From contig NZ_MAAX01000210.1 in assembly GCF_002162835.1 (NCBI RefSeq), positions 4,601 through 51,473 of the forward strand: a stretch of DNA of 46,873 nucleotides, in the 5' to 3' direction. Under the pieces are notes generated by a model. The model was given only the letters and a program-made list of their open reading frames with translations, made no database searches and was not told the DNA's origin. This stretch comes from Nonlabens dokdonensis (GTDB lineage Bacteria; Bacteroidota; Bacteroidia; Flavobacteriales; Flavobacteriaceae). Within the stretch, counting starts at the first letter, position 1. Each line of letters begins with the position of its first letter. This document shows, piece by piece, positions 6,925-13,769 of this stretch. Made by a program: the position numbers and the translations under genes.

Positions 6925-6956
6925 TTGATTTTCAAAACTCTAAAAAGCTATCTTTG
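6925..6956 (+). promoter_or_regulatory. Promoter of the RsuA-like gene (TTG-N21-TATCTTTG)
   Basis: Both elements of the Bacteroidota promoter are present with 21-base spacing, 17 bases before the ATG at 6974. Confidence 0.7.
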
Positions 6957-6973
6957 CAAAAAATTTGAATACG

Positions 6974-7933
6974 ATGAATAGAGGTAGCGAAGGATCAAAG
7001 AATAAAGGTAAAGGACGCCGCGACGGTAAAAGTGCTGCTAATAAAAATAGTAATGACCGCAAAGGAAAATCTTTTCCGTCAAGCAAAGATGGTGATGAAC
7101 GTAAAACCACTCGCGGTGGTAAAAATCAAGTGGTAGGCACCTCACGATCTGGAAATCCTGTTACAAAAAAACAGTACATAGAACGTAAAAAAGCAGAGAG
7201 TTTCTCCAAAAGAAAAACTAATAAAGACGGCGTCAGATTAAATAAATACATCGCAAATTCTGGATTGTGTAGCCGTCGTGATGCAGATATTTATATTAAA
7301 GCAGGAAGTGTTTCTGTAAACGGTAAACCTGTTACAGAAATGGGTTATCAAGTTATGCCTGGTGATGAAGTAAGATTTGACGATCGTCCTATACAGCCTA
7401 CTAAGAAAGAATACTTCATCCTTAATAAACCTAAAGGTTTCAACTCGCCTCGCAAAGGAGAACGCTCTTCAAAGTCAGTTCTTGATCTTATGGAAAATGC
7501 CAGTCCTAACAGCTTGCACTTTGTAGGTAGATTAGGTCGTGCTTCCCTAGGGCTTATGCTTTTTACAAATGACCTAGAACTTGCAAATAAGTTGAATAAC
7601 CCTAAACAACCATTACGTAAAATATATCAAGTTGCTTTGGACCGTAGTTTCAAGCATGAACACTTAATGCAATTGCGTAAAGGCATAATGATCGATAAAG
7701 AAATAATTGAGATCAAGGATATTAATTATATAGAAAACGGTAAAAATAACGAGATAGGTATAGAGATCTTTAGTGGTAAGGACAACATCGTTCAAAATTT
7801 GTTTACTGCTGTAGGTTATGAAGTTAAGGTCCTAGATAGAGTTGTTTTAGGAGGTTTAACAAAAAAAGATTTACCTCGAGGCCACTACCGTAAATTAACT
7901 GAACAAGAGGTGATCAATCTCAAAATGATATAG
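6974..7933 (+). CDS. RsuA/RluB-family pseudouridine-synthase-like protein lacking the catalytic Asp
   Basis: A 319-residue protein: about 85 basic, low-complexity residues (Gly/Lys/Arg/Ser-rich), then an S4 RNA-binding domain (VRLNKYIANSGLCSRRDAD onward), then an RsuA-type catalytic fold (FILNKPKGF, FVGRLGRASLGLMLFTND, GGLTKKDLPRGHYR). In active enzymes the motif is GRLD, where Asp is the essential nucleophile; here the codon is GGT and reads GRLG. The usual RxVRRxF arginine region is also changed to DNIVQNLF. It may therefore bind rRNA without modifying it. The start is the ATG at 6974 behind a clear promoter; the TTG at 6965 would be almost leaderless. Confidence 0.85.
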   Translation: MNRGSEGSKNKGKGRRDGKSAANKNSNDRKGKSFPSSKDGDERKTTRGGKNQVVGTSRSGNPVTKKQYIERKKAESFSKRKTNKDGVRLNKYIANSGLCSRRDADIYIKAGSVSVNGKPVTEMGYQVMPGDEVRFDDRPIQPTKKEYFILNKPKGFNSPRKGERSSKSVLDLMENASPNSLHFVGRLGRASLGLMLFTNDLELANKLNNPKQPLRKIYQVALDRSFKHEHLMQLRKGIMIDKEIIEIKDINYIENGKNNEIGIEIFSGKDNIVQNLFTAVGYEVKVLDRVVLGGLTKKDLPRGHYRKLTEQEVINLKMI

Positions 7934-8025: not shown

Positions 8026-9417
8026 TTGAATACAAAATACATTGATCTCATAGATCAAACGTACTTCTTTCCTACTGAGGAGTTTGAATTGAATAAAGGG
8101 CAATTAAAATTTCATGATATTGATCTCATGGCCCTAGTTGAGCAGTACGGCTCTCCTTTAAAATTTACATATCTACCTAAGATCTCTGATAATATTCAGC
8201 GTGCACAGAAATGGTTTAATGACGCTTTCGCGAAAGCGGATTACAAAGCAAAATATCACTATTGCTATTGTACAAAAAGCTCACACTTTAAACATGTACT
8301 TGATACGGCATTAAGTAATGATATACATCTAGAAACCAGCAGTGCTTTTGATATAGATATTATTAAAAGCCTGAAAGCTGAAGGTAAAATTAAAGACGAC
8401 ACCTATATCATCAGTAATGGTTTTAAACGTGAAAAGTACATAGATAATATTGCAGATTTGATCAACTCTGGTCACAAGAATTGTATTCCTATCATTGACA
8501 ACTACGAAGAACTGAACTTATTAACTAATGTTACTGATAAGAAGTTTAAAGTAGGAATACGCATTGCCAGTGAGGAAGAGCCAAAGTTTGAATTTTATAC
8601 CAGTCGTTTAGGCATAGGTTATAAAAACATTCTTTCTTTCTATAAAAATCAGATTCAGGAGAACCAACAGGTATCTCTTAAGATGCTTCATTTTTTCATT
8701 AATACCGGAATACGTGATAACGCATATTACTGGAATGAATTACACAAATGTCTCAAAGTATACATAAGCCTTAAGAAAATATGCCCTTCATTAGACAGTC
8801 TCAATATAGGTGGTGGTTTCCCGATTAAGAACTCACTTGCATTTGAATTTGACTATGAGTACATGATTAATGAGATTGTAACTCAAATAAAGCAGGTGTG
8901 TGATGAGGCAGATGTGGACGTACCACATATTTTTACAGAATTCGGTTCTTTTACAGTAGGTGAAAGTGGTGGTGCGATCTACAAAGTGTTGTATCAAAAA
9001 CAACAAAATGATCGTGAAAAGTGGAATATGATTAATAGTTCATTTATCACAACCTTACCAGACTCGTGGGCAATAAGTAAACGCTTTATTATGCTAGCCT
9101 TAAACCGCTGGAATGAGGAATATGAGCGTGTATTATTAGGTGGACTAACTTGCGATAGTGATGACTATTACAACAGCGAGCAAAACGTTAACGCTATCTA
9201 TTTACCCAAATATCATAAGGATAGACCGCTTTACATAGGCTTTTTTAATACTGGAGCATATCAAGAAAGCATAGGTGGATATGGCGGTATACAACACTGT
9301 TTAATACCAGCACCTAAACATATTTTAATAGACCGCGATGAAAATGGCGCTATACAAACTAGAGTTTTTAAAGAGCAACAAAGCTCAGAACAAATGCTAG
9401 ATATATTAGGATATTAA
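8026..9417 (+). CDS. speA: Arginine decarboxylase (alanine-racemase-fold PLP enzyme)
   Basis: A 463-residue fold-type III PLP decarboxylase. The PLP lysine is Lys84 in YCTKSSHFKH; LNIGGGFPI is the phosphate-binding glycine loop and GGLTCDSDD carries the C-terminal active-site Cys/Asp pair. The sequence alone could suit another amino-acid decarboxylase, but the agmatinase 49 bases downstream strongly implies arginine to agmatine. The start is TTG: no ATG lies between the upstream in-frame stop (8005) and residue 35, and MNTKYIDLI matches the usual N-terminus as I remember this group. Residues 67-71 (AFAKA) are encoded by a copy of the dispersed palindrome. Confidence 0.85.
   Translation: MNTKYIDLIDQTYFFPTEEFELNKGQLKFHDIDLMALVEQYGSPLKFTYLPKISDNIQRAQKWFNDAFAKADYKAKYHYCYCTKSSHFKHVLDTALSNDIHLETSSAFDIDIIKSLKAEGKIKDDTYIISNGFKREKYIDNIADLINSGHKNCIPIIDNYEELNLLTNVTDKKFKVGIRIASEEEPKFEFYTSRLGIGYKNILSFYKNQIQENQQVSLKMLHFFINTGIRDNAYYWNELHKCLKVYISLKKICPSLDSLNIGGGFPIKNSLAFEFDYEYMINEIVTQIKQVCDEADVDVPHIFTEFGSFTVGESGGAIYKVLYQKQQNDREKWNMINSSFITTLPDSWAISKRFIMLALNRWNEEYERVLLGGLTCDSDDYYNSEQNVNAIYLPKYHKDRPLYIGFFNTGAYQESIGGYGGIQHCLIPAPKHILIDRDENGAIQTRVFKEQQSSEQMLDILGY
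8223..8238. repeat. Dispersed palindrome copy 3
   Basis: CGCTTTCGCGAAAGCG inside the arginine decarboxylase gene, encoding DAFAKAD, a different frame from copy 1. Confidence 0.97.
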
Positions 9418-9466
9418 TATTTTATATAAATCGATTAACTTTAAAACAAACTTTTAATTTCAAGAC

Positions 9467-10402
9467 ATGAGTAATTCAAACTATGCAGGAATTCCAGATG
9501 AATATGCTGGAATCGATAATGCATCAATCGTTTTAATTCCAGTTCCTTATGATGGAACAAGCACCTGGCAAAAAGGCGCAGATAAAGGACCAGAAGCTTT
9601 TCTAGACGCCAGTGCAAATATGGAATTATACGATATTGAAACGGATACAGAAGTGTATCATCATGGAGTCTTTCTTGCAAATCCTGTTACAGAAAATAGC
9701 TCGCCAGAAGCAATGGTAGATGCCGTTCACGCAACTGCTAAAAAGTATATCAAGAAAAATAAGTTTGTAACCCTTTTCGGTGGAGAACATTCTATTTCTA
9801 TCGGAAGCATACGCGCCTTTAACGATATGTATGAAAATCTAAGTGTTTTACAAATAGACGCTCATGCAGACTTAAGAAAAGAATACGATGGTAGTAGTTG
9901 TAATCACGCCTGCGCCGTTTATGAAGCAAGTCAGAAAACAAACCTAGTGCAGGTAGGAATACGCTCTATGGATAGTATAGAAGTAGGTATTAATGATGAC
10001 GATAAAATATTTTCTGCACATGAAATGGTTCAAGATGACTACTGGCAAGAGAAAGCTACTGAAGCACTTACAGAAAATGTATTTATTACCATCGATTTAG
10101 ATGCTTTTGACCCATCGATATGTCCATCTACGGGCACGCCTGAACCTGGTGGGCTCTTCTGGTATGAAACATTAGATTTCTTAAAAATGGTATTTGCAGA
10201 GAAGAACGTGGTAGGTTTTGACATTGTTGAATTATGTCCTAATCCATCAGAGAAATCATCAGATTTTCTTGCTGCAAAACTATATTATAAAATGCTGAGC
10301 TATAAATTTAAAGACATTGCTCTAGAAGGAGAAGATGGTTATGAAGCAAATAATGCTTTTACCAAATCTGGATTAAAAAAAATGAAAAACATAGAAGATT
10401 AA
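9467..10402 (+). CDS. speB: Agmatinase
   Basis: A 311-residue ureohydrolase with all expected manganese ligands: His108 in GGEHS, Asp131/His133/Asp135 in DAHAD and Asp210/Asp212 in TIDLDAFDP; the CPSTGTPEPGG loop follows. It hydrolyses agmatine to putrescine and urea. The setting between arginine decarboxylase and a deoxyhypusine-synthase-like gene makes agmatine a better substrate guess than arginine or formiminoglutamate. It is second in the polyamine operon, 14 bases before the next start. Confidence 0.93.
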   Translation: MSNSNYAGIPDEYAGIDNASIVLIPVPYDGTSTWQKGADKGPEAFLDASANMELYDIETDTEVYHHGVFLANPVTENSSPEAMVDAVHATAKKYIKKNKFVTLFGGEHSISIGSIRAFNDMYENLSVLQIDAHADLRKEYDGSSCNHACAVYEASQKTNLVQVGIRSMDSIEVGINDDDKIFSAHEMVQDDYWQEKATEALTENVFITIDLDAFDPSICPSTGTPEPGGLFWYETLDFLKMVFAEKNVVGFDIVELCPNPSEKSSDFLAAKLYYKMLSYKFKDIALEGEDGYEANNAFTKSGLKKMKNIED

Positions 10403-10416
10403 TCTTCAAAAACATC

Positions 10417-11385
10417 ATGGGAAAACCTATTACTGATTTTATAGAAAACTACTTCTTACACTTTAACAGCGCTGCACTAGTAGACGCTGCAAAAGGTTAT
10501 GAAGCACAATTAAACCAAGGCTCTAAAATGCTAGTTTCACTTGCTGGAGCAATGAGTACTGCAGAGATTGGAAAGATTTTTGGCGAGATGATTCGTCAGG
10601 ATAAAGTACATATCATTTCTTGTACAGGTGCCAACCTAGAAGAAGACTTGATGAATCTAGTAGCGCACAGCCACTATAAGAGAGTGCCTAATTATCGCGA
10701 CTTAACACCGCAAGACGAATGGGATTTACTAGAAAAAGGACTCAACCGTGTAACCGACACATGTATTCCAGAAGAAGAGGCTTTTAGAAGATTACAAGAA
10801 CACATCGTAAAAATATGGAAAGATGCAGAGGCAAAAGGCGAGCGTTATTTCCCGCATGAATATATGTACAAACTACTTTTAAGTGGTGTCCTAGAACAGT
10901 ATTATGAAATCCCTATTGAGAACTCATGGATGTATGCCGCTGCCAAAGCTAACTTACCAATCGTCGTTCCAGGCTGGGAAGACAGTACGATGGGTAATAT
11001 TTTTGCCAGTTATGTATTAAAAGGCGAGTTAAAAGCAAGTACTGTAAAAAGCGGTATCGAGTACATGACTTTCCTTGCAGACTGGTATACTGACAACTCA
11101 CAGAAAGGAATCGGTTTCTTCCAGATAGGTGGTGGAATCGCAGGAGATTTCCCTATTTGTGTAGTGCCTATGTTGTATCAAGATATGGAACGTACCGACA
11201 CGCCGTTTTGGAGTTACTTCTGTCAGATATCTGATTCAACGACCAGTTATGGAAGTTATTCTGGAGCCGTACCTAATGAAAAAATCACTTGGGGAAAACT
11301 AGATCAAGACACACCTAAATTTATTGTAGAAAGTGATGCGACCATAGTAGCACCATTGATCTTTGCTTATTTATTAGAGATGTAA
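10417..11385 (+). CDS. Deoxyhypusine-synthase-like protein, probable homospermidine synthase
   Basis: A 322-residue member of the deoxyhypusine synthase family, with the NAD-binding region SCTGANLEED and the catalytic lysine in KITWGKL (Lys294), equivalent to SWGK in the eukaryotic enzyme. Bacteria have no eIF5A to modify; bacterial members next to polyamine genes have been linked to transferring an aminobutyl group to putrescine to make sym-homospermidine, a polyamine reported as common in Flavobacteria. With the decarboxylase and agmatinase just upstream this gives a complete arginine to homospermidine route. The family is certain; the product is inference. Confidence 0.85.
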   Translation: MGKPITDFIENYFLHFNSAALVDAAKGYEAQLNQGSKMLVSLAGAMSTAEIGKIFGEMIRQDKVHIISCTGANLEEDLMNLVAHSHYKRVPNYRDLTPQDEWDLLEKGLNRVTDTCIPEEEAFRRLQEHIVKIWKDAEAKGERYFPHEYMYKLLLSGVLEQYYEIPIENSWMYAAAKANLPIVVPGWEDSTMGNIFASYVLKGELKASTVKSGIEYMTFLADWYTDNSQKGIGFFQIGGGIAGDFPICVVPMLYQDMERTDTPFWSYFCQISDSTTSYGSYSGAVPNEKITWGKLDQDTPKFIVESDATIVAPLIFAYLLEM

Positions 11386-12233: not shown

Positions 12234-13769
12234 ATGAGTGATATAAATATGAGTAAGATAGACAACTTAAATCTGGAGTTTTTACAGCTTAAGGATTATG
12301 AAGAGTTGAAACATGCAATGATAGATTCTTATAGTAATCTACCAGATTCTTACTGGCGAGAAGAACAGATCAAAACGCTTATAGATAAATTCCCAGAAGG
12401 TCAAGTTGTCCTCAAAGTGAATGAAGAGATCGTAGCTTGTGCGCTTTCTATAGTGGTAAAGTATAACGATTTCAGTGGTCAGTACACTTATGAGCAAGTA
12501 ACCGGAAATTACAAGTTCACCACGCACGATGATGATGGTGATGTACTTTATGGAATTGAGGTATTTATAAAACCACAATATCGCGGTATGCGATTAGGTC
12601 GTCGTTTATATGATTACCGTAAAGAGCTGTGTGAGAATTTGAATTTAAGAGGTATTGCCTTTGGCGGTCGTATTCCTAACTATCATAATCACGCGAGTGA
12701 TATGACGCCTAAGGAGTACATTGAAAAAGTGCGCAATAAAGAGATTACAGACTCTGTCCTAAACTTTCAATTATCAAACGACTTCCATGTTTCTCGTGTT
12801 CTTAAAAACTATCTGGATGGTGATAAAGCCTCTATGGAATATGCGGTATTACTAGAATGGGATAATATTTACTATACAAAACCAGTTACAGAAACCACAG
12901 CATTAAAAAGCACGGTACGGTTAGGATTAATCCAGTGGCAAATGCGCCCTTATTCTGGTTTTGATGAGTTGATGCAACAAGTAGAATACTTTGTAGATGC
13001 GGTAGCTGCCTACAGATCTGATTTTGCTTTATTCCCGGAGTATTTTAACGCGCCTTTAATGGCTGCTTACAATAAGTTGAGTGTTAGTGATTCTATTAGA
13101 GAACTAGCAAAATATACTAAGATGATAAGAAACAAGTTTTCTGAATTATCCATTAAATATAATATCAACATTATTACAGGTTCCATGCCTGAAATTATTG
13201 ATGGACAATTGTACAATGTTGGGAATTTGTGCCGTCGCGATGGAACGATAGGACGTTATGAAAAAATACATGTGACGCCAGATGAGCAAAAAGTATGGGG
13301 ATTACAAGGTGGAAGTATGATCCAGACTTTTGACACCGATTGTGGTAAAATAGGAATCTTGATTTGCTATGACAGTGAATTCCCAGAATTGAGTCGTATT
13401 ATGGCACAAGAAGGGATGCAAATTCTTTTTGTACCATTCTTGACAGATACACAAAATGCTTATGCTCGTGTACGCCTTTGCTCTCAAGCTAGAGCGGTAG
13501 AGAATGAATGTTATGTAGCGATAGCAGGTAGCGTAGGGAATTTACCTGCGGTAGAAAACATGGATATTTCTTATGCGCAAAGTGCTGTATTCACGCCTTG
13601 TGATTTTGCTTTCCCATCAAATGGCGTTAAGGCAGAAGCTACAGCCAATACAGAAATGATTCTTGTGGCCGATGTAGATCTAGATTTATTAAAAGAACTG
13701 CACAATTACGGCGCAGTTAAGAATTTAAAAGACCGCAGGACTGATTTATATGAGGTGAGTAAAAAGTAA
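12234..13769 (+). CDS. Fused GNAT acetyltransferase and nitrilase-superfamily amidohydrolase
   Basis: A 511-residue two-domain protein. Residues about 10-215 form a GNAT domain (IKPQYRGMRLGRRLYDYRK is the acetyl-CoA loop; FGGRIPNY follows). Residues about 225-505 form a carbon-nitrogen hydrolase domain with the full Glu-Lys-Cys triad: Glu269 (ALFPEYF), Lys344 (RYEKIHV) and Cys378 (LICYDSEFPE). The pairing suggests one protein that adds or removes an acyl or amide group on the same nitrogen compound. Its place directly after the polyamine operon makes an amine or amidine substrate attractive, but it has its own transcription unit (terminator at 12117-12159 upstream) and the link is inference. 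Confidence 0.9.
   Translation: MSDINMSKIDNLNLEFLQLKDYEELKHAMIDSYSNLPDSYWREEQIKTLIDKFPEGQVVLKVNEEIVACALSIVVKYNDFSGQYTYEQVTGNYKFTTHDDDGDVLYGIEVFIKPQYRGMRLGRRLYDYRKELCENLNLRGIAFGGRIPNYHNHASDMTPKEYIEKVRNKEITDSVLNFQLSNDFHVSRVLKNYLDGDKASMEYAVLLEWDNIYYTKPVTETTALKSTVRLGLIQWQMRPYSGFDELMQQVEYFVDAVAAYRSDFALFPEYFNAPLMAAYNKLSVSDSIRELAKYTKMIRNKFSELSIKYNINIITGSMPEIIDGQLYNVGNLCRRDGTIGRYEKIHVTPDEQKVWGLQGGSMIQTFDTDCGKIGILICYDSEFPELSRIMAQEGMQILFVPFLTDTQNAYARVRLCSQARAVENECYVAIAGSVGNLPAVENMDISYAQSAVFTPCDFAFPSNGVKAEATANTEMILVADVDLDLLKELHNYGAVKNLKDRRTDLYEVSKK

Follow-up and report, generated by a model that had tools for sequence, protein, structure and literature searches.

It has long been an open question whether rRNA-modifying enzymes persist because of the mark that they leave or because they bind nascent rRNA. 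In E. coli, single-enzyme knockouts have minor effects only, and the absence of all rRNA pseudouridines results in only a very small growth defect (PMC11194073). RlmB and RlmKL have assembly roles that are independent of catalysis (PMC11194073), and TruB acts as a tRNA chaperone (PMC11301382). For RluB, neither growth nor assembly was restored by expressing it in the E. coli delta-10 strain (PMC11194073), which speaks against a strong assembly role; due to this lack of rescue and the very small defect without rRNA pseudouridines, such a role is not established. The closest precedent for the protein described here is human RPUSD3, in which the catalytic Asp is likewise replaced by Gly. RPUSD3 has no noticeable pseudouridine synthase activity in vivo, and is part of a module on which 16S rRNA levels and translation in mitochondria depend (PMC12716993, PMC8067846).

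A gene of the RsuA/RluB type was analysed in a stretch of 46,873 nucleotides (the window) from a Nonlabens draft assembly (214 contigs, ~3.04 Mb, 93% complete). Among the loci fetched, the closest named relative of this genome is N. ulvanivorans. We consider it probable that the gene product is a dead orthologue of the Bacteroidota RsuA/RluB-type 23S rRNA pseudouridine synthase, which selection maintains for a task on rRNA that needs no catalysis. The larger finding is that this pseudoenzyme state is recurrent and selected in one bacterial order, with losses spread across marine flavobacteria. In the literature searched (open-licence papers), no report of such an Asp-less state in bacteria was found.

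The locus and its altered active site

The ORF listing opens at TTG 6965 (6965-7933, + strand, 322 residues), but ATG 6974 is probably the true start and is used in Table 1. In Pfam, the protein carries an S4 domain (41.7 bits, cut-off 22.8, E 1e-10) followed by PseudoU_synth_2 (PF00849; 64.8 bits, cut-off 26.8), the domain order of the RsuA/RluB/RluF family. The AlphaFold2 model has a confident core, and Foldseek grouped the predicted fold with RluF, RsuA and RluB (E down to 1.9e-21). One Foldseek match was 9cl9, titled as a 12 C ribosome assembly fraction with RluB bound. The three analyses agree with the sequence-only reading that the S4 domain and the fold were kept. With TIGR00093, the protein reached 98.3 bits, below the curated cut-off of 109.3, compared with 150.2 for an active orthologue (L060). 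It was also below the cut-offs of the RluF equivalog NF007784 (116 bits; at least 318 required) and the RluB equivalog NF007976 (81 bits; at least 290 required), and the active orthologue, at 143.2 bits, was below the latter as well.

Table 1. Positions of the features in the window
Feature	Position	Strand	Remarks
Bacteroidetes-type -7 promoter box TATCTTTG	6949..6956	+	TAnnTTTG match 17 nt before ATG 6974
RsuA/RluB-type gene, predicted pseudoenzyme	6974..7933	+	319 aa from ATG 6974
Basic N-terminal tail	6974..7231	+	26 K/R vs 9 D/E
Nonlabens-specific tail block RGGKNQxxGTSRxGxPVTKKxYIxRKKxE	7115..7204	+	predicted beta-beta-alpha, pLDDT 71-86
S4 RNA-binding domain	7235..7399	+	from Pfam, RluB alignment and selection analysis
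R104	7274-7276 (codon)	+	equivalent of RluB Arg17, invariant
Motif II R189-L-G191-R	7529..7540	+	G191 (GGT 7535-7537) in place of catalytic Asp110
Y221	7625..7627	+	equivalent of RluB Tyr140, kept in most Nonlabens
Motif III GKDNIVQNLF	7775..7804	+	N274 (7784-7786) in place of Arg194
Arginine decarboxylase-type gene, downstream	8026..9417	+	syntenic marker

The residue equivalences were obtained by aligning the window protein (P0001) to E. coli RluB (9cl9/4lab) and counting the positions by hand. G191 was paired with Asp110, N274 with Arg194, R189 with the base-flipping Arg108, Y221 with Tyr140 and R104 with Arg17, so by this alignment both Asp110 and Arg194 are gone and the other mapped residues are retained. 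The sequence at motif II is FVGRLGRASLGLMLFTND, where GRLG replaces GRLD with a GGT codon, and the active-site Arg of motif III gives way to the Asn of GKDN. Both changes had been read correctly beforehand, the second as a replacement of RxVRRxF by DNIVQNLF. Going by the identity of these residues, catalysis has very probably been lost, and the earlier description of a non-catalytic descendant of a pseudouridine synthase is very probably right, with the Asp and Arg194 lost and the S4 domain conserved.

The long basic tail that had also been described was confirmed; it spans 87 aa, mostly modelled at low confidence. The tail block was present in 24 of 24 Nonlabens loci (L001, L004-L025, L059) and absent from the other orthologues fetched, outside Nonlabens, and no Pfam domain matched it. 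Its conservation within Nonlabens exceeds that of the dead active site. It is possibly a newly gained interaction module.

As for the strong promoter that had been read from the sequence, no sigma-70 type was found on the + strand; a Bacteroidetes -7 box is there instead. Of 129 orthologue loci, 97 have a TAnnTTTG match ahead of the start codon, mostly at a distance of 13-18 nt, and the box accompanies active and inactive forms alike with conserved spacing.

Neighbour gene functions were assigned by reading their sequences. The order GHMP kinase, UbiA-type prenyltransferase, nitrilase-like gene, pseudoenzyme gene, arginine decarboxylase and agmatinase is common, in whole or in part, to Asp-bearing and Asp-less orthologues, and therefore supports the orthology of the two forms. 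The same arginine decarboxylase neighbour was found in Leeuwenhoekiella, Winogradskyella, Christiangramia and N. ulvanivorans. The gene immediately upstream in the window codes for an ABC-type permease rather than a nitrilase. Directly downstream, the arginine decarboxylase, an agmatinase and a deoxyhypusine-synthase-like gene follow in a row (8026-11385), likely a polyamine cluster, and an ORF at 12234-13769 looks like a fusion of an acetyltransferase domain with a nitrilase-type carbon-nitrogen hydrolase domain. In N. ulvanivorans JCM 19298 the arginine decarboxylase is split into two overlapping frames (L059:3688-5078), perhaps by an assembly frameshift.

Recurrent loss of the catalytic Asp under purifying selection

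Aligning the orthologues, as the sequence-only reading had suggested, revealed a conserved Asp-less clade. The orthologue was present throughout Nonlabens (23/23 genomes), the Asp in no member of the genus (0/23). Gly occupies the site, replaced in a few genomes by Asn, Ser or Thr, and the codons there are GGA, GGT, GGC, AAC, AAT, TCT and ACT. Across the genus, the GKDNIVQ segment is almost as constant as the state of residue 191. A sequencing or assembly error was ruled out, as the loss is common to all 23 genomes and the isolate N. ulvanivorans.

Beyond the genus, 230 Bacteroidota orthologues were read, a set that contains a few duplicate genomes from two collections and is biased to high scorers against the window protein. 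The Asp was lost in 87 of them (Gly 59, Glu 14, Asn 5, Ser 3, His 3, and Thr, Ala and Gln). Arg194 was lost in 86 of these 87, compared with 40 of the 143 Asp-bearing orthologues, an association with a Fisher p of 1.5e-30 when relatedness is ignored; a paired-lineage sign test of the two residues, restricted to supported branches, had too few differing pairs for significance.

Given these residues, it is hardly credible that the proteins still make pseudouridine, be it with a different residue doing the work of Asp110 or as partners of an active enzyme. The equivalents of Tyr140 and Arg108, which are kept in most Nonlabens, and the Glu at the site in some lineages (14/87) would suit such activity, but Gly is no nucleophile, Asn, Ser and Thr are unlikely ones, and the Asp is described as universally conserved in pseudouridine synthases (PMC3919597). 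Arg194 has been lost as well, and the R108A change alone leaves RluB with 0.6% activity (PMC3919597), while the equivalent of that Arg is Lys in 51 of the 230 orthologues.

On an orthologue tree built with the active-site columns masked, parsimony counted 16 Asp-state changes, or 21 losses on the assumption that the Asp is never regained, and strongly supported branches hold six independent contrasts. The Asp is present throughout outside Flavobacteriales and all losses lie inside this order. The earlier reading did not notice this recurrence across Flavobacteriales, which makes the loss more than the oddity of one clade. The largest dead clade has 35 members, including Winogradskyella, Lacinutrix, Leeuwenhoekiella and Gilvibacter, in which Tyr140 is also lost, to Phe. 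Among 115 sampled genera of the window's family, a score-biased sample, 51 had lost the Asp, 19 had kept it and lost Arg194, and 45 had kept both. Annotation by family name therefore labels as pseudouridine synthases many proteins that are very probably incapable of this function.

In an order-wide sample most families kept the Asp, and losses were found in two more families (f8 and f11), so the phenomenon is wider than Flavobacteriaceae. These Asp-less loci are L338, L352, L353 and L355 (f11) and L326 (f8), with GKLN, DKLN, DTLN or GRLE. Two endosymbiont-sized genomes of 600 kb (L328 and L329, g257) keep the gene with its Asp, often as the sole candidate in the search. In Flavobacterium and Myroides (L092, L099, L100, L103, L108, L111, L114, L306, L307, L310 and L314-L325) the Asp is kept (GRMD) and Lys replaces Arg194 (ANVKVVR). 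The L099 contig (CALPUN020000157.1) is titled as a Bifidobacterium breve MAG and carries a Flavobacterium-type orthologue; it is probably misbinned.

Selection was estimated from Nei-Gojobori medians of pairs with synonymous distances below saturation, with one locus containing ambiguous bases left out. The dN/dS of the S4 and catalytic domains was 0.023 and 0.028 in Nonlabens, 0.048 and 0.054 in the 35-member dead clade, and 0.043 and 0.034 in active orthologues. The dead proteins are therefore not decaying, as their dN/dS of 0.02-0.05 equals that of active orthologues, and they combine purifying selection with a lost catalytic residue, as would be expected of a catalysis-independent assembly factor in an RPUSD3-like mode. 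Gly is retained across GGA, GGT and GGC in Nonlabens, and as the 35-member clade has only Gly at the site, using all four Gly codons, the Gly itself appears to be constrained.

Most of the positions that differ from those of active orthologues surround the active site (191, 194, 195, 204, 212, 221, 273, 274 and 292), and a group of S4 positions stayed fixed (91-93, 100, 102-105, 107, 108, 111 and 114). R104 shows 100% conservation, in the active set as in both dead clades; its RluB equivalent, Arg17, is the main S4-RNA anchor (PMC3919597).

That the gene is a relict, drifting to loss because Psi2605 is dispensable, is improbable. Stepwise active-site decay would predict the common loss of Arg194 without loss of the Asp (40/230), yet drift would hit the S4 domain too, the genes contain no stops and have the dN/dS of active orthologues, the promoter and the Gly are conserved, and 244 of the 251 good family genomes (97%) contain the orthologue.

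Paralogues, putative rRNA target and a possible role in assembly

The window's genome encodes six PF00849 proteins, of which the other five keep the Asp. A separate protein (L002) passes the RluF equivalog (329.4 vs 318), and another member is RluE-like. The search for an intact second copy, also proposed by the sequence-only reading, found none of the window gene's orthologue in its own assembly (93% complete), and in the family search every genome that matched did so exactly once at E 1e-45 or better. Compensation by an intact second copy was rejected on these grounds. All of the checks of the sequence-only reading that lend themselves to computation turned out in its favour. A general relaxation of pseudouridylation was also rejected, as GRLD and NRQIRR are intact in the RluF-like paralogue at all 37 loci read, which come from genomes with a dead RluB-like protein.

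U2605 may be the target of this orthologue family; RluF-like and RluE-like proteins are encoded separately in the genome and, in the PDB, RluB gives the active orthologue a higher score than RsuA does, and the target can only be inferred because active and dead orthologues both fall below the RluB equivalog cut-off. The 16-base 23S target loop GTGAGACAGTTCGGTC was exact in 10 of 10 Nonlabens genomes with a 23S in the assembly, and no 23S match was found in the other 13 Nonlabens assemblies, the window's own draft included. An altered rRNA target was therefore rejected, the loop being unchanged in those 10 genomes.

The protein itself seems to matter more than its former chemical mark, and a ribosome assembly factor, the role that had been raised from the sequence, is plausible. 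The non-catalytic job is most likely in large-subunit assembly, for which 9cl9, RlmB and RlmKL, TruB and RPUSD3 are supporting precedents. The protein would still bind the 23S stem-loop at nt 2588-2606, which includes U2605, via its S4 domain and the catalytic-domain cleft, and could keep the immature peptidyl-transferase region in place or reshape it while the large subunit is being assembled, before departing without isomerising U2605. The basic tail may add rRNA contacts, and position 2605 would be an unmodified U in these bacteria.

It is rather unlikely that the protein has instead been repurposed for another RNA or partner, such as an mRNA, a tRNA or a regulatory target. The dead clades have Asn at the position of RluB His131, a residue close to the A2602 bulge, which may mean a shift in RNA recognition; the new tail block found only in Nonlabens and the lack of an assembly phenotype for E. 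coli RluB (PMC11194073) also point this way. However, the S4 residues and the fold have stayed the same in many independent lineages, for which one shared old target, the rRNA, is the easier explanation.

Returning to a role in large-subunit assembly, we give an even chance to the wider proposal that the U2605 mark is dispensable and the protein is not, with ~16-21 independent conversions of a modification enzyme to a pure assembly factor in Flavobacteriales. Catalysis has very probably been removed repeatedly in free-living bacteria with purifying selection unchanged, and the intact RluF-like paralogue serves as an internal control. If the proposal is true, this is a repeated natural experiment that separates the body of an rRNA-modifying enzyme from its chemistry. 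As some of the genera have cultured isolates, the prediction of no Psi2605 and of a deletion phenotype in 50S assembly is directly testable.

Comparison with known systems

The window protein resembles RluB, RluF and RsuA of E. coli (4lgt, 3dh3, 1ksk) in its fold and in the order of the S4 and catalytic domains. The S4 anchor Arg17 is common to both, and Arg108 and Tyr140 are shared with most Nonlabens. It differs from them by the absence of Asp110 and Arg194, by scores below TIGR00093 and all equivalog cut-offs, and by its long basic N-terminal tail.

The tRNA chaperones TruB and TrmA, together with RlmB and RlmKL, are similar to the proposed role in having a protein job that is independent of catalysis (PMC11301382, PMC11194073). 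However, these natural proteins are active and their inactivity was engineered, whereas the window protein was inactivated by evolution. RPUSD3 is a member of the RluA family from vertebrate mitochondria and a close homologue of the active RPUSD4, whereas in the window's genome the dead form is the only orthologue, and its loss of the catalytic Asp recurs.
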